From a virus, in the IMG/VR virus record IMGVR_UViG_3300008267_000321, positions 1 through 25,751 of that record: a DNA stretch of 25,751 bases; one strand, 5' to 3'. The notes under the pieces were generated by a model, which saw only the letters and a program-made list of their open reading frames with translations, did not search any database and had not been told where the DNA came from. Shown here piece by piece: positions 6,349-25,747 of this stretch. Both the position numbers and the translations under genes were made by a program. Within the stretch, counting starts at the first letter, position 1. Each line of letters begins with the position of its first letter.

Positions 6349-7404
6349 ATGGAGAAGATAGAAAGGCCTTTTGGTGCTAGAACCTATTCAGAGATTCTTA
6401 AAGAAGGTCTCCAATATATAAATGACAGAAGACTAGGGAAAATCAAATCTTTTAAGACCCCATGGCCAACACTGAACTCAGCGGGTGTTGGTGGTTTAGA
6501 ATGGGGGAGTATGCTAACTATAGGTGCAAGACCTGGTGCTGGTAAGACCATGTTTGTTTCTCAACTTATAAGAGAAGCTCGTCACTTAAATCCTGGACAA
6601 GATTTTAATGTTTTAGAATTCCAGTTTGAGATGGGTGCTAAGCAATCAGCTTCAAGAGCTTTTGCTGCACACGTTGGACTGGACTATGACATTATCCTTA
6701 GTACAAGAGAACAGGTGGACGAATTCTCCTTAAAGATAATGAAAGAACACATGGAGGAAACAGCTATACTAGAGGGTCACGGCATCCATAGATTGCAGAT
6801 AAATAATCCGCTGACACATAAGGATATGGAGAAAGCTATTCACACCTACTATAATGCATTAGGTGGTAAGCCAATGGTTGTATCCGTAGACCATAGCTGG
6901 TTGATTAAGAAATCACCAGACGAGAAAGAAAAGCTTAACACTTTGTATAACACTGTAGAGATGTTAATGAGAGTGAAGAACGAGCTTCCTATCATCGTCC
7001 TAATGATCACCCAGCTTAATAGAAGTATAGATGAACCAGCTAGAAAGACACCAGGCTCTATAGCCAACTTTCCTACTAGTTCAGATATATTTGGTGGTGA
7101 CGCTCTTATGCAGGGCTCAGACATGGTGCTAGTATTAACTAGACCCTATAAAGCTGACATCCCTGTGTATGGACCAAAAGAATATGTATGTAACAAGGAA
7201 GACTTGTTCATGCATATTATAAAGTCACGTAATGGTTCTGACGACACTAATCTTATCTTTATAAGAGGTGACTTTAACAAACAAAAGATGTCTGAGACTA
7301 TCGAACCAGCTTCTAATAATCCCACTGGTAGATTTGTACCAAGAAGAGCTGGTGGTTCTGGTAGAGGAAGACAAGCTGAATCCGCAGATCTTAATATTTC
7401 ATAA
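6349..7404 (+). CDS. dnaB: Replicative DNA helicase, DnaB-type RecA-fold domain, 351 aa
   Basis: The protein has the motor domain of hexameric DnaB helicases, which unwind DNA 5'-3' at the fork. Walker A is G-A-R-P-G-A-G-K-T at 59-67, the DnaB form 'R-P-x-x-G-K-T'. F-Q-F-E-M at 91-95 corresponds to F-S-L-E-M with the catalytic Glu at 94. Walker B is V-S-V-D-H at 178-182. T-Q-L-N-R at 221-225 is DnaB motif H3. The usual N-terminal primase-binding domain is missing, since the ATPase core begins within the first 50 residues; this explains the length of 351 versus about 450-470 for bacterial DnaB. The tail is rich in Gly, Arg and Ser. It probably forms the replisome with the primase and PolB encoded downstream. 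Confidence 0.93.
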   Translation: MEKIERPFGARTYSEILKEGLQYINDRRLGKIKSFKTPWPTLNSAGVGGLEWGSMLTIGARPGAGKTMFVSQLIREARHLNPGQDFNVLEFQFEMGAKQSASRAFAAHVGLDYDIILSTREQVDEFSLKIMKEHMEETAILEGHGIHRLQINNPLTHKDMEKAIHTYYNALGGKPMVVSVDHSWLIKKSPDEKEKLNTLYNTVEMLMRVKNELPIIVLMITQLNRSIDEPARKTPGSIANFPTSSDIFGGDALMQGSDMVLVLTRPYKADIPVYGPKEYVCNKEDLFMHIIKSRNGSDDTNLIFIRGDFNKQKMSETIEPASNNPTGRFVPRRAGGSGRGRQAESADLNIS

Positions 7405-8001: not shown

Positions 8002-8685
8002 ATGGCACAAGGGATCTTAATCATTGCTGAGTCCGGTGCTGGGAAATCCACCAGTATTGAGACGTTAAACCCCAAAGAAACGTTTATTGTAAACGTTGCG
8101 AACAAACCCCTTCCTTTTAGAGGTTGGAAGAGTAAGTACACACTATGGAGTAAAGAAAACCCAGGTGGTAACATGTACGACAAGTGTAATCCTGAAAGCA
8201 TTGAAGCTTGTCTAAAGTATGTAAGTGAGAAACGTCCTGAAATCAAAAACATTGTAGTGGATGATTTTCAGTATATGTCTTCATTTGAATTCTTTGACAA
8301 AGCTGATGAGAAAGGATATGAGAAGTTCACTAAGATTGGTGCACACTTAGCTAGAATAGCTAGGATGCCAAAAGATCTAAGAGAAGATCTTATGATTTTC
8401 TTCTTGACACATGCTGAAGAAGCTACGGATTTAGAAGGTAAGCGTAAGTTTAAAGCAAAAACTATTGGAAGAATGGTTGATGAAAAACTTACGTTGGAAG
8501 GACTTTTTTCCATAGTTTTGTTTGGTAAAGCCAAGAAGAACAAAGATGGTGTGATACGTTATGTATTTGAAACCCAGACTAATGGTGAAAATACATGTAA
8601 GAGTCCTAAGGATATGTTTCCCACCTTTGAGATCATGAATGATCTAGAGTATGTAAGACAAGCAATTATAAACTACGAGAATTAA
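8002..8685 (+). CDS. Sak4-like RecA-fold ATPase (AAA_24-type), 227 aa
   Basis: This is a compact P-loop ATPase. Walker A is A-E-S-G-A-G-K-S-T at 9-17. Walker B is I-V-V-D-D-F-Q at 84-90, followed by an aromatic Y-M. A sensor-like strand runs I-F-F-L-T-H-A-E-E at 132-140. About 145-200 resembles the T-I-G-R-M-V-D-E-K ... F region of phage Sak4 proteins (G-R-M-x-x-E-K). Sak4 proteins are minimal Rad51/RecA relatives that anneal single strands and work with an SSB, and the next gene encodes an SSB candidate. A PD-(D/E)XK nuclease downstream could complete a recombination set. The ATPase is certain; the assignment to Sak4 rather than another AAA_24 subgroup is likely. Confidence 0.85.
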   Translation: MAQGILIIAESGAGKSTSIETLNPKETFIVNVANKPLPFRGWKSKYTLWSKENPGGNMYDKCNPESIEACLKYVSEKRPEIKNIVVDDFQYMSSFEFFDKADEKGYEKFTKIGAHLARIARMPKDLREDLMIFFLTHAEEATDLEGKRKFKAKTIGRMVDEKLTLEGLFSIVLFGKAKKNKDGVIRYVFETQTNGENTCKSPKDMFPTFEIMNDLEYVRQAIINYEN

Positions 8686-9389: not shown

Positions 9390-10361
9390 ATGTTTAAAAT
9401 TAAAAATTTAGTCCACGATGTAAAAGATGTACCTACGTCCTTTATATTTGAGCATTTCTGTCCTCTTAGAGAAAAACTAACAGGTCAGGATGTAAAAATA
9501 AAAAGTATGTTCAACCCTAAGGAACGTACACCAAGTATGTGCATTTATGTAGATGGACAGAAGATATATAAATTCAAAGATTTCTCTACAGGGAAGGGAG
9601 GATCTGGTATAGAGATGGTTAAACTACTTCATGGTATTTCTTATCACCAAGCTTGTAAACTAGTTGTAGAAAAGTATAATGATTATGTTCTCCATAACAA
9701 CGGAGGCTATGACATTAAAGAATTCAAACAGGCTAGCAAGTATAAGGTGACAAGCTTTAAGATTAGGAAGTGGTCTACCCAGGACCAGTATTTCTGGACT
9801 CAGTTCAATATTGGTTCAAAGCTTCTAGAAGAGCATCATGTAAAACCTTTGGAAAGTTACTCTATGGCAAAGGATGATAATGAGCTCTGCATAAAAGGAC
9901 TTTATCTTTATGGTTATTTCAAAGAAGATGGTACTCTCTATAAGATATATCAACCCAAAACTCTTGATAAGAAATTTATTAAAGTGGTTAGTTATGTCCA
10001 GGGGATGGAACAGCTTCAGAAACATCCTAACTTAGTCATCACATCTAGTCTTAAAGATGCAATGTCTATTAAATCTCTTAAGCTTGATATAGACGTTATA
10101 GCTCCTGATAGTGAAAACACTATGCTAAAGGAGGATGTAATAAATGATCTATCTGAGAAGTTTAAAAACATCATTCTACTTTTTGATAATGATGATGCAG
10201 GTTTGGAGTCTATGAAAAAATATAAAGAGAAGTATCCTTTTGTAAAAATAGCTGTTCTACCTATGAGTAAAGACGTGTCGGATTCTATAAAAGACTATGG
10301 AGCTAAAGAAGTTCGTAACAGATTAGTTCCTATCTTAGATAAAAAAATACAGAATGGCTAA
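9390..10361 (+). CDS. Toprim-domain DNA primase, 323 aa
   Basis: The protein appears to be a DnaG-type primase reduced for phage use. Residues about 15-95 resemble the N-terminal DnaG region without a CHC2 zinc finger: F-N-P-K-E-R-T-P-S at 41-49, F-K-D-F-S-T-G-K-G-G at 62-71, and A-C-K-L-V-V at 88-93. The Toprim core follows: the first motif at 217-226 (I-T-S-S-L-K-D-A-M-S), F-D-N-D-D-A-G at 265-271 for metal binding, and a further D-V-S-D at 295-298. In ordinary Toprims the first motif carries a catalytic Glu (E-G-x-x-D), which here is replaced by Ser-Ser-Leu-Lys. It would lay RNA primers for PolB beside the DnaB helicase. It overlaps the HNH gene by 8 nt. Confidence 0.87.
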   Translation: MFKIKNLVHDVKDVPTSFIFEHFCPLREKLTGQDVKIKSMFNPKERTPSMCIYVDGQKIYKFKDFSTGKGGSGIEMVKLLHGISYHQACKLVVEKYNDYVLHNNGGYDIKEFKQASKYKVTSFKIRKWSTQDQYFWTQFNIGSKLLEEHHVKPLESYSMAKDDNELCIKGLYLYGYFKEDGTLYKIYQPKTLDKKFIKVVSYVQGMEQLQKHPNLVITSSLKDAMSIKSLKLDIDVIAPDSENTMLKEDVINDLSEKFKNIILLFDNDDAGLESMKKYKEKYPFVKIAVLPMSKDVSDSIKDYGAKEVRNRLVPILDKKIQNG

Positions 10362-10752
10362 GAAGAAAGCTACAAGAAAAACCCAAACACCAAAAACTCG
10401 GAATGCAGGTACCATGACGGAATCTGCATTCTGGAGTTTTATACGATCTGCACTTAGACAAAAGTCTAGATGGTGGAAACCTATAGGTCAGGCTAAAGCA
10501 AAAGCTAAAAGATCTTATAAGGGTCCGCTTAAAAGACAGAAGTTTGAGTATCAGTGTGCAGAATGTCTCAACTGGTTTCCTGATAAGGAAATTAATGTTG
10601 ATCATAGAATACCTGCAGGTACACTAAGATGTGCTAATGATCTTCCGGGTTTTGTAGAAAGACTCTTCTGTGAAGTGGATAATCTTCAAGTGCTCTGTAC
10701 AACATGTCACGATAGAAAAACACAAAATGAAAAAACTAAAACCGTTAAGTAG
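10354..10752 (+). CDS. HNH endonuclease, 132 aa
   Basis: A zinc-ribbon type HNH nuclease. C-A-E-C at 68-71 and C-T-T-C-H at 115-119 hold the structural zinc. D-H-R-I-P-A-G at 83-89 carries the catalytic His in the beta-beta-alpha-metal fold. N110 and the final H-D-R-K-T complete the motif. Residues 1-60 are strongly basic and would bind DNA. Its 8-nt overlap with the primase and 26-nt overlap with the ThyX fusion show it is built into this operon and not a recently inserted homing element. Possible roles are host-genome cutting, replication-intermediate processing or packaging; sequence alone does not decide. Confidence 0.88.
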   Translation: MAKKKATRKTQTPKTRNAGTMTESAFWSFIRSALRQKSRWWKPIGQAKAKAKRSYKGPLKRQKFEYQCAECLNWFPDKEINVDHRIPAGTLRCANDLPGFVERLFCEVDNLQVLCTTCHDRKTQNEKTKTVK

Positions 10753-11434
10753 AGAGTTTCTTCTAAAGAGAGGATTCTGTTGTCATAACGGTTGTTTAAA
10801 CTGTCCTTATAAAATGAATAACACCGTAGAATTATTAGGCTACTATGGATCTGATGAGATTATAGCTTGCTCAGCATGGACCAGTACATCCAGAGAGCTT
10901 ACAGATGATAAGAAAGAACGTATCCCAAAACTTATAAACATGCTTTGGTCAGAAGGACATGAAACACCATTTGAGAAGGGATCCGTACACTTCTTAGTAA
11001 ACTGTGACATAGCTTCACACATTCATCTTCTTAAGCATAGGATAGCTAGTATCAATGCAGAGTCTGCTAGATATAAAGAGCTAAAGGAAGATAAAATGTA
11101 TATTCCTGAAGATTGGCCTATATCATTAGGAATGAAGTTATTACAACACACAAGATTAAGTGATGTCTTATACCATGAGGCATTAGAAGAACTCACTCCT
11201 ATATTGGGGCGCAAGAGAGCTAAAGAGTCTGCTAGGTTCTTTAAGACTTACAACTCTCAGATACAAGCTGATGTACAGTTTAACATGAGAAGCTTTGCTA
11301 ATTTCTTAAAGCTAAGAATGTCAGAACATGCTCAGGTGGAAATCAGAGAGATAGCTAGTCAGATGTTAAAATTAGTCCAGGATATTCCTGGATCACCATT
11401 TCAAGAAACATTAAAAGCATGGGGTTATGAGTAA
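10727..11434 (+). CDS. thyX: Flavin-dependent thymidylate synthase ThyX with extra Cys-rich N-terminal module, 235 aa
   Basis: ThyX makes dTMP from dUMP with methylene-tetrahydrofolate, FAD and NADPH. The ThyX part starts at the internal M29 (10814): G-H-E-T-P-F-E, then K-H-R-I-A-S-I-N-A-E-S, the signature RHR-x7-S with its first Arg as Lys, then Y, and the C-terminal F-A-N-F-L-K-L-R-M with E-H-A-Q-V-E-I-R-E. The family's usual length is about 200-250 aa. Upstream and in frame, without a stop, is a 28-residue module, L-S-R-E-F-L-L-K-R-G-F-C-C-x-N-G-C-x-N-C-P-Y (C18, C19, C23, C26), resembling the small DUF5522-type Cys domain. The ATG at 10727 includes it; translation could instead begin at 10814 and give plain ThyX of 206 aa. 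The open frame continues upstream to 10670, but that part is an HNH shadow. It overlaps the HNH gene by 26 nt and the next gene by 8 nt. Confidence 0.9.
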   Translation: MKKLKPLSREFLLKRGFCCHNGCLNCPYKMNNTVELLGYYGSDEIIACSAWTSTSRELTDDKKERIPKLINMLWSEGHETPFEKGSVHFLVNCDIASHIHLLKHRIASINAESARYKELKEDKMYIPEDWPISLGMKLLQHTRLSDVLYHEALEELTPILGRKRAKESARFFKTYNSQIQADVQFNMRSFANFLKLRMSEHAQVEIREIASQMLKLVQDIPGSPFQETLKAWGYE

Positions 11435-11609
11435 AGAGATAACCAAAGATGATTTAAAACAAGAAGTCTTAGATCAAATTAAACTTGATATAGATTGTGG
11501 TGAATATGAAGCTCTTGAAACTTTATTAGAATTCTGTTCTATGGAGTCTCTTATAGCATATTTACCAGAAAGCGTATGGAAAAAGTATAAACATTTAATT
11601 CAACAATAA
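11427..11609 (+). CDS. Small acidic hypothetical protein, 60 aa
   Basis: An all-helical, acidic protein without a recognised domain. It contains D-I-D-C-G-E-Y-E-A-L-E-T-L-L-E-F and ends in Y-L-P-E-S-V-W-K-K-Y, with no membrane segment or signal peptide. Translation is supported by an 8-nt overlap with ThyX upstream and a 1-nt overlap (TAATGG) with the next gene. Its place among replication genes suggests an early regulatory or accessory role, but the sequence gives no direct function. Confidence 0.68.
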   Translation: MSKEITKDDLKQEVLDQIKLDIDCGEYEALETLLEFCSMESLIAYLPESVWKKYKHLIQQ

Positions 11610-11812: not shown

Positions 11813-11973
11813 AACACACCCATAGTGATAAGCTCACTAAAGAAAAAAATGAGGACATTATTAGTTCTCATAAACTTATAGAATTTCTTGAGTATGAAGA
11901 AGCTCTTACTAAAGACAAGGAGACTGCTAAAAGAATTAGAAAGTTACTAAAAGATTTAAAGATATGGAGTTAG
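11803..11973 (+). CDS. Small charged hypothetical protein, 56 aa
   Basis: An ATG at 11803 opens a frame that ends with TAG at 11971-11973, filling the gap between the 67-aa gene and the nuclease gene. It overlaps both neighbours by 10 nt, which supports translation in a coupled operon. The protein is helical and highly charged, with H-K-L-I-E-F-L-E-Y-E-E-A-L-T-K-D-K and a basic end R-I-R-K-L-L-K-D-L-K. No family is recognised; an accessory or nucleic-acid-associated role is possible. Confidence 0.6.
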   Translation: MSIEHTHSDKLTKEKNEDIISSHKLIEFLEYEEALTKDKETAKRIRKLLKDLKIWS

Positions 11974-12992
11974 AAGATTTAATGAATGAGTCTGTAGAAA
12001 TCCTAGAACAAGGATTCTATAGTAGACAATTTGAGTTTTCCTACAGTAGTCTTAATAAGCTACTTTGGAATCCTGTAGTTTTCTATCAACTTTATATTCT
12101 TGGTAATAAAGAAGAAAGACTGGACCAGCATCTCGTAAATGGGAAGCTGGTTCATAATCTTCTTTTAGAACCAGAGAAGTTTGATGAGCAGTTTATGGTT
12201 AGCCCGGCTAATCTGCCTACAGGTAATCCAAGAATGGTTATAGATAGAGTGTTTACTCACTATCAAGAGTTGGTTAAAAACGGTGATCAAAGAACAGAGC
12301 TTAGAGAGTTTGATAATGCTATACTAGACATTATGAAAGACATGTCTTACCATCAAGCTTTGAAGACAGACCAGCAAAGACTGGACAAAATCTTTACAGC
12401 AGAGTGTGAAAACTATTGGAACTTTCTTAAAGCTAAGGGTGGTAAAACATTATTAGATCAAGAGACTTATGACTTCTGTCATAACGCTGTAGAACTAATT
12501 AAAACCGACTCTCAGATATGTAAACTTATAGGATGTAACCCATCTGAGTTTGACAACATAGAAGTTTTAAACGAGATACCATTAAGTTGTAAGATTAATA
12601 ACAAACCTTTTGGTCTTAAAGGAATTATAGATAATTTAGTTATTGACCATGACAAAAAAGTTTTGTATATTAATGATGTAAAGACCACTAGTAAAGACTT
12701 AAAAGATTTTCCAGAGTCAGTTGATTATTATAACTATTGGCTACAAGCAGCTATATATGTAAGCTTAGTAGTTACTAAATATTCATACTTGATTGATCAA
12801 GATTACGACTTAAAATTTAACTTTGTAGTGATAGACAAAAACTATTCTGTCTATCCTTTTGAAGTTTCTGAGCAGACGTTAAATCTATGGCTGACAAAAC
12901 TTGAAGAGTCTTTAAATAAAGCAGAGTGGCATTATATAAACAAAAGGTATGATCTTCCTTATGAGTTTGCAATAGGTAGGGTCCGCCTGTAA
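11964..12992 (+). CDS. PD-(D/E)XK nuclease, RecB/Cas4/ExoVIII-like, 342 aa
   Basis: An N-terminal region (about 26-70) has Y-S-S-L-N-K-L-L-W-N-P-x-x-F-Y and G-K-L-V-H at 60-64, the entry motif of the RecB/Cas4 nuclease superfamily. The catalytic set follows: Glu204 in N-E-I-P-L, Asp223 in G-I-I-D-N-L, and D-V-K at 238-240, the (D/E)-x-K core on a strand K-K-V-L-Y-I-N-D-V-K-T-T. A later Q-A-A-I-Y at 261-265 region is typical of the family (W-L-Q-A-A-I-Y-V). No Cys cluster for an Fe-S centre is evident, so it is nearer to lambda-exonuclease/RecE (DUF3799) than to Cas4. With the Sak4-like ATPase and SSB candidate it could supply 5'-3' resection for recombination. Confidence 0.86.
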   Translation: MELEDLMNESVEILEQGFYSRQFEFSYSSLNKLLWNPVVFYQLYILGNKEERLDQHLVNGKLVHNLLLEPEKFDEQFMVSPANLPTGNPRMVIDRVFTHYQELVKNGDQRTELREFDNAILDIMKDMSYHQALKTDQQRLDKIFTAECENYWNFLKAKGGKTLLDQETYDFCHNAVELIKTDSQICKLIGCNPSEFDNIEVLNEIPLSCKINNKPFGLKGIIDNLVIDHDKKVLYINDVKTTSKDLKDFPESVDYYNYWLQAAIYVSLVVTKYSYLIDQDYDLKFNFVVIDKNYSVYPFEVSEQTLNLWLTKLEESLNKAEWHYINKRYDLPYEFAIGRVRL

Positions 12993-14085: not shown

Positions 14086-16026
14086 ATGAATCAACAAGAA
14101 AGAGCTCACTGGGTGATGGACTATGAAACTATTTGCAACTGTTTCATAGCAGTTTTTCAACACTACAAAGACCCTGGTGTAAGAAAAGTGTTCGTTGTTT
14201 CCGAACAGAGAACAGACTTTCTAGAATATATAAAGTTTCTAAACACATGTGTTGCCAAAAAAGAGTGGCATATATCCTACAACGGTATAAACTTTGATGC
14301 TCAAATTACAGAGCAGATTCTTAAGGAGCAGTCTAAGCTTCTTAAAATGGAAGCTAAAGACTTGGCTGCTTACATCTATTCTTATGCACAGTCTGTTATA
14401 GATAAGTCTAACAAAGGTACCTTCTTGGATTATGCTCCCTATAAGATGAAGGTTAAGCAGATAGATCTGTTTAAGCTTAATCACTGGGATAATAAAGCTA
14501 AGATGTCTAGCCTGAAGTGGATACAGTATTCCATGGACTGGGGTAATGTAGAAGAGATGCCTCATCCGCATTATGAACCTATCCATACCGAGCAGCAGCT
14601 TGAAATGGTTGTTAACTATTGTATTAATGACGTACTCTCTACTAAAGAAATACTTCATCACTCCAAAGAACAGATAGCACTTAGACAGACTCTCACTAAA
14701 GAGTATGGTATAGATTTATATTCAGCTTCTGAGCCTAGAATATCTAAAGAACTATTTCTTTATTTTCTACAAGAACGCCTTGGTTGGGAGAAGGCCCATA
14801 TCAAAACGCTTAGAACTAAGCGGGATTATATTGTACTAGCAGATTGTATCCTTCCTTATGTTCAGTTTAATACACCGGAGTTTAACAAGGTGCTAGATTA
14901 TTTCCGTACAAAGGTGATTACATCTACTAAAGACGGATTTAAATACAGCATTGACTTTAAAGGTGTTAAGACTGACTACGGACTAGGTGGCATCCATGGT
15001 GCAGCTAGTTCTGGAGTGTATGAAGCTAAACCAGGCTGGACTATTATGACCAGTGACGTTACTAGTTTCTATCCCAATCTAGCTATTAAGAATGGTTTTC
15101 ATCCTGAACATCTACCTGCTAAAGAGTTTAATCATTTGTATGAGTGGTTCTTTGAAGAGAGGAAAAAGATTCCTAAGACAGACCCAAAGAACTACGTGTA
15201 CAAGATTATTCTGAATAGTACCTATGGTCTAACAGGTGACGAGAATAGTTTCCTGTATGATCCTAGAATGACTATGCAGATTACTATCAACGGTCAGCTA
15301 CTATTATCAAAACTTGCAGAAATGTTAAGTTTTGCTATTCCAGAGTGTCAGCCTTTAATGCTAAACACAGATGGTTTGGAGATGATGATACCAGACTCTA
15401 GAGTGGACGACTATATGAAAGTGTGCTCTGAATGGGAAAAGCTAACACAGCTAGCCCTTGAGCATGACCAGTATAGTAAGATGGTTATTAGAGATGTTAA
15501 CAACTACATGGCTATTACTCAGAAGGGTAAGGTAAAGTGTAAAGGAGCTTTTGAATGGGAAGATTTGTCTAAGAAAAAGGTAGCAACCTTCCACAAGAAT
15601 AAGTCTTTCCTTATTATACCAAAAGCTATCTATGCCTATTTCGTGAACGGAACCAAGCCTGAAGATTTTCTAGATGCTAATACAGATATTTACGACTACT
15701 GCGGTGGTGTTAAAGCTAAATCTGGTTGGCATTTTGAAGAACGTAAGATAGTTGATGGTGAAGTGTTTAACAACAAGCTACAGAAAATCATTAGATATTA
15801 TATATCTAACAATGGAAGTAAATTAGTAAAGTGTCATCAAGACGGACGTGAGATCCAGGTAGAATCTGGAGAGTGGTTACAGACCACAGTTAATCAATTA
15901 GATCCTTCTAAAGCTTTTGATTCTTATGATATTAACAAGAAGTATTATCTACAAGAAATCTATAAAGAAATAGAAGGAATACAAGCTGTAACTTTTAATA
16001 AGTTTACACAGCTATCTTTATTTTAA
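14086..16026 (+). CDS. Family B DNA polymerase with 3'-5' exonuclease, 646 aa
   Basis: This is the replicative polymerase. Proofreading motifs come first: Exo I D-Y-E at 12-14, Exo II Y-N-G-I-N-F-D at 65-71, and Exo III Y-C-I-N-D at 178-182. The polymerase motifs follow: motif A S-D-V-T-S-F-Y-P-N at 323-331 (metal Asp324), motif B K-I-I-L-N-S-T-Y-G at 373-381, and motif C L-N-T-D-G at 426-430 (metal Asp429; the usual first Asp of DTD is Asn). Only about 50 residues lie between A and B, far fewer than in phi29 (about 135) or RB69 (about 150), so phi29-type TPR2 is absent and the palm/fingers are very compact. Priming should therefore come from the Toprim primase rather than a terminal protein. 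It is preceded by its own terminator-isolated leader and forms an operon with the DUF932-like gene. Confidence 0.94.
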   Translation: MNQQERAHWVMDYETICNCFIAVFQHYKDPGVRKVFVVSEQRTDFLEYIKFLNTCVAKKEWHISYNGINFDAQITEQILKEQSKLLKMEAKDLAAYIYSYAQSVIDKSNKGTFLDYAPYKMKVKQIDLFKLNHWDNKAKMSSLKWIQYSMDWGNVEEMPHPHYEPIHTEQQLEMVVNYCINDVLSTKEILHHSKEQIALRQTLTKEYGIDLYSASEPRISKELFLYFLQERLGWEKAHIKTLRTKRDYIVLADCILPYVQFNTPEFNKVLDYFRTKVITSTKDGFKYSIDFKGVKTDYGLGGIHGAASSGVYEAKPGWTIMTSDVTSFYPNLAIKNGFHPEHLPAKEFNHLYEWFFEERKKIPKTDPKNYVYKIILNSTYGLTGDENSFLYDPRMTMQITINGQLLLSKLAEMLSFAIPECQPLMLNTDGLEMMIPDSRVDDYMKVCSEWEKLTQLALEHDQYSKMVIRDVNNYMAITQKGKVKCKGAFEWEDLSKKKVATFHKNKSFLIIPKAIYAYFVNGTKPEDFLDANTDIYDYCGGVKAKSGWHFEERKIVDGEVFNNKLQKIIRYYISNNGSKLVKCHQDGREIQVESGEWLQTTVNQLDPSKAFDSYDINKKYYLQEIYKEIEGIQAVTFNKFTQLSLF

Positions 16027-16898: not shown

Positions 16899-16991
16899 AT
16901 GGAAAACTATAAAAGAAAAAACACTATCTTTGGATGGATAAAACATATTATTCTTTGTTTTATATCACTTTCTAAAAACCCCACAAAATGA
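16899..16991 (+). CDS. Possible 30-aa hydrophobic micro-ORF before the dNMP kinase
   Basis: ATG at 16899 and TGA at 16989-16991 give 30 codons with a basic start (ENYKRKN) and a hydrophobic middle (GWIKHIILCFISLS). Its stop overlaps the kinase start in the classic ATGA arrangement, which favours coupled translation. Against it, a good promoter -7 element lies inside it at 16925-16932; a transcript from there would lack its start. It could be a small membrane peptide, a leader, or chance. Confidence 0.3.
   Translation: MENYKRKNTIFGWIKHIILCFISLSKNPTK
16925..16932 (+). promoter_or_regulatory. Candidate Bacteroidota-type -7 element
   Basis: TATCTTTG is an exact match to the TAnnTTTG pattern of primary-sigma promoters in Bacteroidota. 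It lies between the strong terminator and the kinase gene, where a new promoter is expected. A TTTG at 16893-16896 is 28 nt upstream, longer than the usual spacing of about 20, so the -33 part is unconvincing. Confidence 0.4.
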
Positions 16992-17665
16992 TCATTGGAA
17001 TATCAGGATACGCAGGTTCTGGTAAAGACACCGTAGGAAAAATTATACAGTATGTAATGGGCGGTAAAAAAGACCCATTTAGCTTCTCTATAGAAGATGC
17101 AATTAATAAACCAGAAGAGTACGACTGGGTGTTAGAAGAATCTTCTGATTGGGAAATAAGAAAGTTTGCAGACAAACTTAAAGACATAGGAGCTCACCTA
17201 CTTGGTGTAGATGCTGAAGACTTTGAAGATCCAGAGTATAAAAAAAGTATTCTACCGTCAATGTGGTGGACGACTTGTGATGAAGGTTTACAACCTATGA
17301 CTGTTAGAGAGTTTCTTCAGAAACTTGGTACAGATGCTATGAGAAATGGACTACATACTAATGTATGGGTAAATGCTCTTATGGCTGACTATGAATGTGT
17401 ACCGGCAGACAGAGCTCCAGGGGGATGGGATTGCGATAACTGGGTTATTACAGACACAAGGTTTCCTAATGAAGCTAAAGCTATTAAAGAAAGAGATGGT
17501 ATTATCATCCGTATAGACAGACCAGGATGTAAACCTGTAAACGCTCACCCTAGTGAGACTAGTCTAGACAAATGGGACTTTGATTATAAGATAGCAAATG
17601 TCTCTGATTTATTTTCTTTAAAACTAACCGTTGAAACTATTCTTAAACACGCTAAACTTTTATGA
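16988..17665 (+). CDS. Deoxynucleoside monophosphate kinase, T4 gp1-like, 225 aa
   Basis: A P-loop kinase with G-Y-A-G-S-G-K-D-T at 7-15, the form found in T4 gene 1-type dNMP kinases. T-V-R-E-F-L-Q-K-L-G-T-D-A at 105-117 is the substrate-binding R-x-x-L-Q-x-x-G-T element of this family. V-I-T-D-T-R-F-P-N-E-A at 153-163 and H-P-S-E at 187-190 are the family's other hallmarks. It would phosphorylate dNMPs such as dTMP or modified dCMP to dNDPs, feeding host NDP kinase. The gene starts with a 4-nt ATGA overlap with a micro-ORF and ends with a 4-nt ATGA overlap with dcd, so kinase and deaminase are probably made in fixed ratio. ThyX in the previous operon would supply dTMP. Confidence 0.9.
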   Translation: MIIGISGYAGSGKDTVGKIIQYVMGGKKDPFSFSIEDAINKPEEYDWVLEESSDWEIRKFADKLKDIGAHLLGVDAEDFEDPEYKKSILPSMWWTTCDEGLQPMTVREFLQKLGTDAMRNGLHTNVWVNALMADYECVPADRAPGGWDCDNWVITDTRFPNEAKAIKERDGIIIRIDRPGCKPVNAHPSETSLDKWDFDYKIANVSDLFSLKLTVETILKHAKLL

Positions 17666-22882: not shown

Positions 22883-25747
22883 TTATAGTTTACATTGATT
22901 TTCTAAAGCAAGTTCATTTGGTACTTCTGTTACTAAAGCTATATTAGTTCCTATTGACCTCATTGGGTTTTTAAAATCAGCTTCTACAAATGTACCCTTT
23001 TCATCTGTAACATTCTTGGTTAACACATAAGTTTTTTCTCTAGCTCTAGATACAGCAGTGTACATTGTTTGAGAATAGTTCTTAGGTGTAAGAATTAAAT
23101 TACCATCTTGACCTGCTCTAACATGATTTCTTATGTTTTCTTCATTTACAAATGAGTGGTTGTAAGTCTGACCCTGCACTTTATGAGAAGACATTGCATA
23201 ACCATGGAAGATACCAAAGATATTTTTTTCAGAAAGAGCCATCTTGTGTTTGTATAAGAAGAAACTTCCATCGTCTAATACGTATCCTTTTTGATCTCTA
23301 CCATTTATGTTTCTTGTACTATACTTAGTACTATCGTTTATCTGTCTAGTAAAGCTCTTAGTTAAAGCTGTAAAAGAAACTAAACCATCTCCATAATAAG
23401 CAGTGATGTTATAAACAGGAACATCTACATATGCAGGATACTTAGCAGTTCCTAAATTCATGTTCTTAACTTCCTCTGATATGTTCTTTATAATAACTCT
23501 AGAGTTCTTAGCCAATTCTATGTTCTCTACTTTACCATCTTTATATAAGATCTCAGCATCTAAAATACTACCATTTAAGAATACAGCATCACCAGGTAAG
23601 AATACATTAGTTGCAGCTTGCTGTACCCCAAATAAAGTTTGTCTAATCCTAGAATTTATCTTAGCTGTTTCCGGATGGTTCTCGTTGTTATACATTATAA
23701 TAACAGCATTTCTAGAATTGTATGGGTCATTTCTAAAGACATTAATGAACTTATCTACAAATCCGTCTTTATCTGCTGTATACATTACATTCTCACTAGA
23801 GATAGTAGTGTCTTTATCTAGAATACTTACAATCTTTAAAGGATTAGCAGCTGAGGATATACCCTCTTGAAGTCCTTTATTATAGTGATCAATAGCTCTT
23901 CTAAATCTAGAACCCAGGTTTGTTATATCTTGGTTCTTAGTACGCTCCACTATATATAAACCTACACTCTTCTCAGGATTTCTTCTAAGATTGATAGCCC
24001 AACCATCTTGATCAGGAGTTTCTCCTATAGGTGGTATCTGAGCATAGTCTCCCATGAATAAAATCTTTGGTTCAGGTTGTCCAAGAACACTTGCTCTTTC
24101 AGCTATTCTTTTATTTAAAGCCTGGATTTCTCTAGATCCAATCATAGAAGACTCATCTATAATAATCCAATCAGAACGGAATATCTCAGGATACATGTCT
24201 TTACCAGTCTGTTCTGATTTTTCCATATACTCTTCAACAGGAATAAGCTCAAAGGTTTCTTCACCTGAAGGTAGTACCTTTGGTCTAGACCCTAACAAAC
24301 TAGCAAGTGTCTTAGCATCTTTATTACCTGCTCTTACCAACTCACCTTTAGCAGTGTGAGATATTGCAGTGTAAGAAATAACAGGTTTTCTTTTTGATGT
24401 ACTAACAGCAAGAGCTTTTCTAATTGCTGTAGCAGCAGAAGCTGTTTTACCAGTACCACCAGCACCATACAACAAGAAACTATTATCTTCTAAAGTTTTT
24501 CCAAGTGGTTTATTAAAGAAACCAGCTATCTTATCTATAGCTTCTTTCTGATCTTCATTAGCTTCAAACACACCATTTGGTGTAGCAAGATCATACTCTT
24601 TAAGATCTTTCTGATTTATTGTAGACGGGTCAAAGGAAGGTTCATCAGGATCTCCTGAATAGTCTTCATCATTTGAAAAGTCTTGACCACCTGTTTCAGA
24701 TATCAACCCTACAATCTTATCAATACCATTATAGAGAGTTGAGTTATCTGAAATCTTAATACCAAGAGACTTAGCTAAAGAATTAAACAAGTCTCTAAGT
24801 AATTGTTTAAATCTTTCAAGTATACTAATATTTATTCTTTCTTTGTATGGTAGAGTGTTCATAAACTGTTGGAAGACTTTATCAGTCATCAACATGCTGA
24901 CAAACTCATCCAGGTTTGTTAATCCATAGTACATAGATTTTTCAGAAGGACTAATGTTCTTTTCTTGACTTTCTGAAGCCATCTCTCCAATAACTCTAGA
25001 AAGCTTAGCACCATGTTCTTCAGAACGTAAAACGTCTTTCTGAACTTTCTCAAACATGTCTTTTAGTGCATAACCAAAAGCAAGTTGTCTTTCAGTTAAC
25101 TCTTTAGGTTTTGTCTTCAATACATTCAGAACTCCTGCTGTATAAGCATGTAATACTTCATGCATTATAACAGTTTCTAGATTTTCTAACTCACTAAGCT
25201 TAGGATTATCTCTCTTAGCAATCTCAGGATTAATACGTATTCTATTGTTTAAGTAGTCTCCCGCAGCAAAAGTCATGTTAGTATCAATCATAACATTCAC
25301 ATTCTTAACTCCTGTCTTAGAAACAATGTTAATTAGATCTTTAAAGAAAGGGTTCTTTGTGTTCTTTGCTATGTTTTTTAGTACAGTTTCCAAAGAGTTA
25401 TTTCCTATTAGATCAGGAATAAGTTTCTCTGTAACAGAATCAACTGGAGAACTAGGAGCAAACGAAGGTGTTTCTGGAAGAACAACATTATCAAGCTGTG
25501 TTATATCAATCATAGATGAATCCACTATATTGTCTTGTGAGAATATAGCAGTAGCTGGATCAAGAGTTTCCATCATCTCACTACTAGGATCTATGATTAA
25601 ACTACCCAGTCCTCCTATAGATGGAGGAGTGAGACCAATATTATTATCAGATAAGTCTGAAGATGTTATGACATTTTCAGCACTTTCTGCAGATGTTTTA
25701 GTAGATAATAAACCTGCATCAGATAACATTTTTTTTATTTGAGGCAT
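22883..25747 (-). CDS. Zinc-metallopeptidase / SF1 helicase polyvalent protein, 954 aa or longer (right-edge)
   Basis: Two enzyme domains share one chain. First comes a zincin: I-M-H-E-V-L-H-A-Y at 194-202 supplies the HExxH site and L-D-E-F-V-S near 279-284 may provide the third ligand. A disordered acidic linker (about 350-395) follows. The second is an SF1B (RecD/Dda-like) helicase: Walker A G-A-G-G-T-G-K-T at 428-435, Walker B I-I-I-D-E at 528-532, G-D-Y-A-Q-I-P-P-I at 567-575, S-S-H-K-V-Q-G-Q-T at 853-861, and Y-T-A-V-S-R-A-R at 896-903. Peptidase plus helicase in one giant phage protein fits the polyvalent-protein class thought to be injected with DNA. The ATG at 25747-25745 is only 4 nt from the window edge and the frame is open beyond it, so the true N-terminus may lie outside. 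Confidence 0.88.
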   Translation of the reverse strand: MPQIKKMLSDAGLLSTKTSAESAENVITSSDLSDNNIGLTPPSIGGLGSLIIDPSSEMMETLDPATAIFSQDNIVDSSMIDITQLDNVVLPETPSFAPSSPVDSVTEKLIPDLIGNNSLETVLKNIAKNTKNPFFKDLINIVSKTGVKNVNVMIDTNMTFAAGDYLNNRIRINPEIAKRDNPKLSELENLETVIMHEVLHAYTAGVLNVLKTKPKELTERQLAFGYALKDMFEKVQKDVLRSEEHGAKLSRVIGEMASESQEKNISPSEKSMYYGLTNLDEFVSMLMTDKVFQQFMNTLPYKERINISILERFKQLLRDLFNSLAKSLGIKISDNSTLYNGIDKIVGLISETGGQDFSNDEDYSGDPDEPSFDPSTINQKDLKEYDLATPNGVFEANEDQKEAIDKIAGFFNKPLGKTLEDNSFLLYGAGGTGKTASAATAIRKALAVSTSKRKPVISYTAISHTAKGELVRAGNKDAKTLASLLGSRPKVLPSGEETFELIPVEEYMEKSEQTGKDMYPEIFRSDWIIIDESSMIGSREIQALNKRIAERASVLGQPEPKILFMGDYAQIPPIGETPDQDGWAINLRRNPEKSVGLYIVERTKNQDITNLGSRFRRAIDHYNKGLQEGISSAANPLKIVSILDKDTTISSENVMYTADKDGFVDKFINVFRNDPYNSRNAVIIMYNNENHPETAKINSRIRQTLFGVQQAATNVFLPGDAVFLNGSILDAEILYKDGKVENIELAKNSRVIIKNISEEVKNMNLGTAKYPAYVDVPVYNITAYYGDGLVSFTALTKSFTRQINDSTKYSTRNINGRDQKGYVLDDGSFFLYKHKMALSEKNIFGIFHGYAMSSHKVQGQTYNHSFVNEENIRNHVRAGQDGNLILTPKNYSQTMYTAVSRAREKTYVLTKNVTDEKGTFVEADFKNPMRSIGTNIALVTEVPNELALENQCKL

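Follow-up and report, generated by a model that had tools for sequence, protein, structure and literature searches.

Protein fusions are commonly taken as functional links between the parts that they join ('Rosetta stone' logic). Domain shuffling in phages is established, with N- and C-terminal protein parts being exchanged by recombination; in one such study (Smug et al. 2023, PMC10684548) the passages on mosaicism deal with receptor-binding proteins, endolysins and core replication proteins. The case described here, a module of 25 amino acids that roves over unrelated genes, differs from what those passages cover and is absent from them. It involves ThyX (PF02511; e.g. T. maritima TM0449, PDB 1kq4) and DUF5522 (PF17653), for which no paper was found in the literature searched. 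The Oxidored-like N-terminal domain (PF09791) has a resembling four-cysteine pattern, to which our modules have weak matches of 10–20 bits; membership was rejected because all scores (10.5 bits in the window, 19.9 bits at best in locus L154) fall below the cut-off of 24. Papers on OXLD1 appear, in the parts consulted, to be disease or expression surveys.

We analysed 25,751 nt of a viral sequence (IMG/VR record IMGVR_UViG_3300008267_000321, positions 1 to 25,751; hereafter the window). As the original prediction had it, a DUF5522-type cysteine module is joined in frame to ThyX: a single plus-strand frame of 235 aa runs from ATG 10727 to the stop at 11434, and the short module and ThyX form a genuine in-frame fusion. 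The proposed search of the N-terminal residues against the DUF5522 model gave 31.8 bits for the first 29 aa alone and 30.3 bits for residues 9–32 of the 235-aa protein (profile searches, curated cut-off 25), while residues 35–219 match PF02511 (Thy1) over profile positions 1–187 of 191 (E 9e-35; 121 bits against a cut-off of 24.8). The HNH gene upstream extends at its 3' end over the module start codon and overlaps the frame by 26 bases. The features are as follows.

9390–10361, plus strand: Toprim primase-like gene (PF13155, phrog_12622), the conserved left neighbour and synteny anchor
10354–10752, plus strand: HNH endonuclease gene (PF01844, phrog_1985), its 3' end lying over the module start codon
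10727–10813, plus strand: short DUF5522 module, residues 1–29 (MKKLKPLSREFLLKRGFCCHNGCLNCPYK); PF17653, 31.8 bits, cut-off 25, model positions 25–45 of 48
10778–10810, plus strand: four-cysteine motif CCHNGCLNCPY (CC-x2-GC-x2-C), from the sequence
10814–11434, plus strand: complete ThyX from M30, 206 aa (PF02511, E 6e-35; PDB relatives 3n0b and 1kq4)
11427–11609, plus strand: O60, a small gene whose homologue bears the module in L205/L331 and L117
11609–11812, plus strand: O67, a small gene whose homologue bears the module in L104, L249 and L258

The replication genes of the window encode a DnaB-like helicase (6349–7404), a Sak4-like annealing protein (8002–8685), an exonuclease (11964–12992), a DNA polymerase (14086–16026), a dNMP kinase (16988–17665) and a Dda-like helicase (22883–25747).

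The ThyX part shares with known ThyX proteins the full-length catalytic domain and the motifs GHETPFE and NxRSxxNFLxLRxxxHAQxEI, and differs from them by its signature and by the extra N-terminal module. The signature (11029–11070) reads KHRIASINAES, i.e. KHRx7S for RHRx7S (first Arg replaced by Lys, the rest kept), with NA where NE is expected. We found 188 ThyX relatives in IMG/VR and kept the best 80. A full ThyX was readable at 74 of these loci, and KHR..S.NAESAR is present in all 74, so the Lys is a clade trait rather than a sign of decay. The window ThyX looks intact and is probably an ordinary, active ThyX that serves as a carrier. In each of the 74 relatives (31 non-redundant sequences aligned) ThyX starts at the Met equivalent to M30. 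This agrees with the earlier expectation that the internal Met, from which a complete ThyX runs, is the normal start, except that the residue is M30 and not M29 (235 − 206 = 29 residues stand ahead of it). Two products of 235 and 206 aa are possible from this frame.

A search for the same fusion in related phages had been proposed, and its outcome among the ThyX relatives is negative: the 74 readable relatives are without the module, and the cysteine pattern occurs at none of the best 80 of the 188 loci. In the nearest relative (L273, on the same contig as L002; primase 95%, HNH 94% and ThyX 86% identical) the ThyX ATG overlaps with the stop codon of HNH; when the two sequences are aligned, about 71 additional bases stand in the window immediately 5' of that ATG. 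Because HNH and ThyX abut in this relative, about 71 bp appear to have been gained before the ThyX start.

The window module corresponds to the C-terminal half of the 48-position PF17653 domain. Its alignment covers model positions 25–48 only and the first half is missing, so it is not a full DUF5522 member; the other short fusions are much the same. Common to it and to full-length DUF5522, cellular or viral, are the helix (LSREFLLKRG, compared with TExYHLKRG) and the CCxNGCxNCPY motif, whereas the full-length form also has model positions 1–24 with a predicted beta hairpin. A structural model of full-length DUF5522 (pLDDT 77, pTM 0.51) consists of a beta hairpin, a helix and a Cys loop in that order, of which the short form retains the last two. 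For this model the PDB yielded neither a fold match (best E 1.6) nor a sequence relative, and an AlphaFold2 model of the ThyX fusion was uninformative (mean pLDDT 54). Judging solely from its four conserved cysteines, the module probably binds a metal.

The two forms differ in how often they are fused. In a sample from a search pattern that demanded neither form, the short form is fused in 9 of 14 cases and the full-length form in 3 of 103 (Fisher p 5e-8, the loci not being independent). Cysteine modules of this kind had been described as normally free-standing; that is true of the full-length form (100 of 103 viral cases, and usually small open frames in hosts) but not of the short one. About seven short free-standing types (by our own grouping) compare with 27 fused tail families; they include a 39-aa VPKNTRGS type, a KTKDKDGK type and L225, which ends at CPY. 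Since a few short modules thus stand free, a carrier is not obligatory. The short module had no match at E < 0.1 in a 50,697-record collection of isolated phages (best E 0.2).

Scanning IMG/VR with the short-form pattern returned 77 viral stretches. Their architecture is M-x(1-6)-PL[ST][RK]xFLLxRGxCCxNGCxNCPY followed by the partner Met, usually within 7 residues. Grouped by BLAST, the fused tails form 27 families (i.e. ThyX and 26 others), and in 21 of the 27 a Met stands 0–7 residues after CPY, compared with about 16% expected from how often Met occurs in these tails (p about 2e-12). Partners recognized with Pfam and PHROGs are ThyX, MazG, cREC, WDGH, SET, a ResIII helicase, RusA-like and Hjc/RusA-like resolvases, and metallopeptidase-like and SSB-like proteins; membrane-like proteins also occur, many tails are unknown, and several partners are fused in more than one contig. 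Loci L110 and L211 have different partners and the same KTKN linker between module and partner Met, as if the downstream genes had been exchanged exactly at the start codon. In one MazG fusion (L357, 1454–1783), the frame of which enters masked bases, the module reads NGCKNFPY, with the fourth Cys lost. This module is possibly decaying, and the loss points to some tolerance for missing cysteines.

The module amino acids are under constraint. Across 26 modules on nearly all different partners (325 pairs), pS averages 0.82 and pN 0.14; pN never exceeds pS, and pairs that share a partner also have pN well below pS. The cysteines, G, N20, P and Y are invariant in the 26 fusions, partly by construction of the search pattern; P1, L2, F6 and R10 are nearly invariant though the pattern did not demand them. 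A purely RNA-level or translational leader is ruled out by this constraint together with synonymous saturation, and no notable RNA structure was found around either start codon of the fusion frame. The DUF5522–ThyX fusion is not a chance product because its cysteine motif scores above the curated cut-off, the module is fused in frame to numerous further phage proteins, and its amino acids are conserved while synonymous sites are near saturation.

Each record has one module. All 48 distinct records with a PF17653 match, up to 134 kb long, contain exactly one, although these records were selected for holding a module and many are fragments. They comprise 40 short-module records (about 2.2 Mb in all) and 11 matching records among the HNH kin, 3 of the 11 being among the 40. 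The module is a protein-level unit, and at least 27 unrelated phage protein families have it attached at, or immediately ahead of, their start codon, with one copy per record. We found no earlier description of a tiny module that roves over unrelated start codons as one copy per genome.

The gene order primase–HNH–O60–O67–exonuclease is common to the phages related to the window, and along it the carrier changes: ThyX in the window, O60 in L205/L331 and L117, and O67 in L104, L249 and L258. In other members of the group the module has a different genomic location, on MazG (L192 and L357) or cREC (L210 and L227), and most of the remaining members, several in records longer than 100 kb, have no DUF5522. 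In unfused kin ThyX or O60 comes directly after HNH, with the same overlap. The HNH tail covers the module start codon in L331 as in the window; in six unfused kin (L271, L278, L281, L284, L292 and L295) the overlapped gene is O60, with its start codon at the same place in the HNH tail as the module start in the window and L331. Upstream genes vary as well: a GIY-YIG-like frame replaces HNH 5' of the module in L117 (4400–5300) and a sigma-factor-like frame does so in L300 (5300–6000), both named by sequence reading and both ending in a nearly HNH-identical tail, KTQ[ND]EK..TxK.

The reading that we favour, at a probability of roughly 45%, is that the module itself has an independent, likely metal-binding phage function and that its partner is a carrier. 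The helix and four-Cys metal-binding loop would supply, mimic or compete with a host DUF5522 protein. Since it no longer has the N-terminal half by which the full-length form can exist on its own, the module would ride on a downstream folded protein, whichever is present, as carrier, stabilizer and expression partner. It would move by recombination where flanking genes (HNH, GIY-YIG-like, sigma-like, ThyX, O60 and O67) are repeatedly swapped, and would capture the translation start of the gene before which it lands. We infer that the short form requires a folded neighbour, because it is so much more often fused than the full-length form and keeps only the helix and loop of the model. It is on the strength of this requirement, the single copy per record and the lack of a theme among partners that we assign the function to the module rather than to its partner. 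More tentatively, the module may be a hitch-hiking micro-domain of about 25 aa with a stand-alone function, one copy per genome, that lands behind the translation start and ahead of the coding sequence of one unrelated gene after another and uses its carrier only for expression and stability.

Other explanations need to be weighed against this one. The module could act on the fused partner: as a tag for targeting, for regulation or for metal-dependent redox chemistry, it would recruit or tune enzymes of the phage, among them ThyX; in-frame, N-terminal fusion with close junctions would suit such a tag, as would the several partners that are nucleic-acid or nucleotide enzymes, which could reflect a theme rather than the phage base rate. 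However, one would expect to find a tag on several of a phage's proteins, SET, WDGH, membrane-like and unknown proteins among the partners offer no common theme, and the nearest ThyX relatives do without it, so that we consider this account doubtful. A ThyX-specific role is unlikely, as the module occurs on 27 unrelated tail families and once per genome and is missing from the closest ThyX phages, and for the same reasons the earlier suggestion that the module tunes ThyX is not supported.

Neutral stop-loss is likewise an improbable source, though a somewhat better one, in which a small independent gene readily loses its stop by recombination or point mutation, gains no benefit and leaves the partner's own start in use. 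The placing of most junctions at the start codon of the partner (linkers of 0–6 residues), the KTKN linker before two different partners and the recombination-rich neighbourhood with swapped flanking genes are all consistent with it; yet full-length genes should lose their stops equally, which the unequal fusion frequencies contradict, and among the loci examined no free module lies directly upstream of a partner that is fused elsewhere. Finally, no second ThyX fusion was found and the one in the window is known from a single metagenomic contig, as would fit an error of sequencing or assembly, or an open frame that arose by chance. Such an origin is nevertheless highly improbable, and in general is ruled out for sequencing errors and frameshifts by the same overlap plus module in other contigs (e.g. 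the HNH tail in L331); the occurrence of module fusions in numerous independent contigs, with several partners recurring between contigs, and purifying selection on the module codons also speak against it.

With the module on 27 unrelated families and in one copy per genome, a fusion says little about the partner, and naming such proteins by either half would mislead genome annotation. The uncharacterized peptide is conserved among phages and part of the Bacteroidota, and its many natural carriers make its function testable.

In Bacteroidota, 42 of 148 genomes have a PF17653 match (40 above the cut-off), mostly as a single copy in a small open frame, with four frames of 347–381 aa. Outside the gammaproteobacteria the sole recurring context of DUF5522 is between TrmB-like and alkyltransferase-like genes (named by sequence reading) in a few Chitinophagaceae-type genomes, too narrow for functional inference. 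In gammaproteobacterial loci such as L367 and L378, and in L397 (Saprospiraceae), DUF5522 is the C-terminus of a 110–150 aa protein with a Cys-rich N-terminal half that has a CWC motif and presumably resembles Cys_rich_CWC. In one genome each of Armatimonadota and Planctomycetota (L387 and L391) DUF5522 is fused N-terminal to a solute-binding-like protein (ISLCPSNTEI...), and it likewise precedes a surface-like protein in L421 from the Bacteroidota search, both partners being named by sequence reading.
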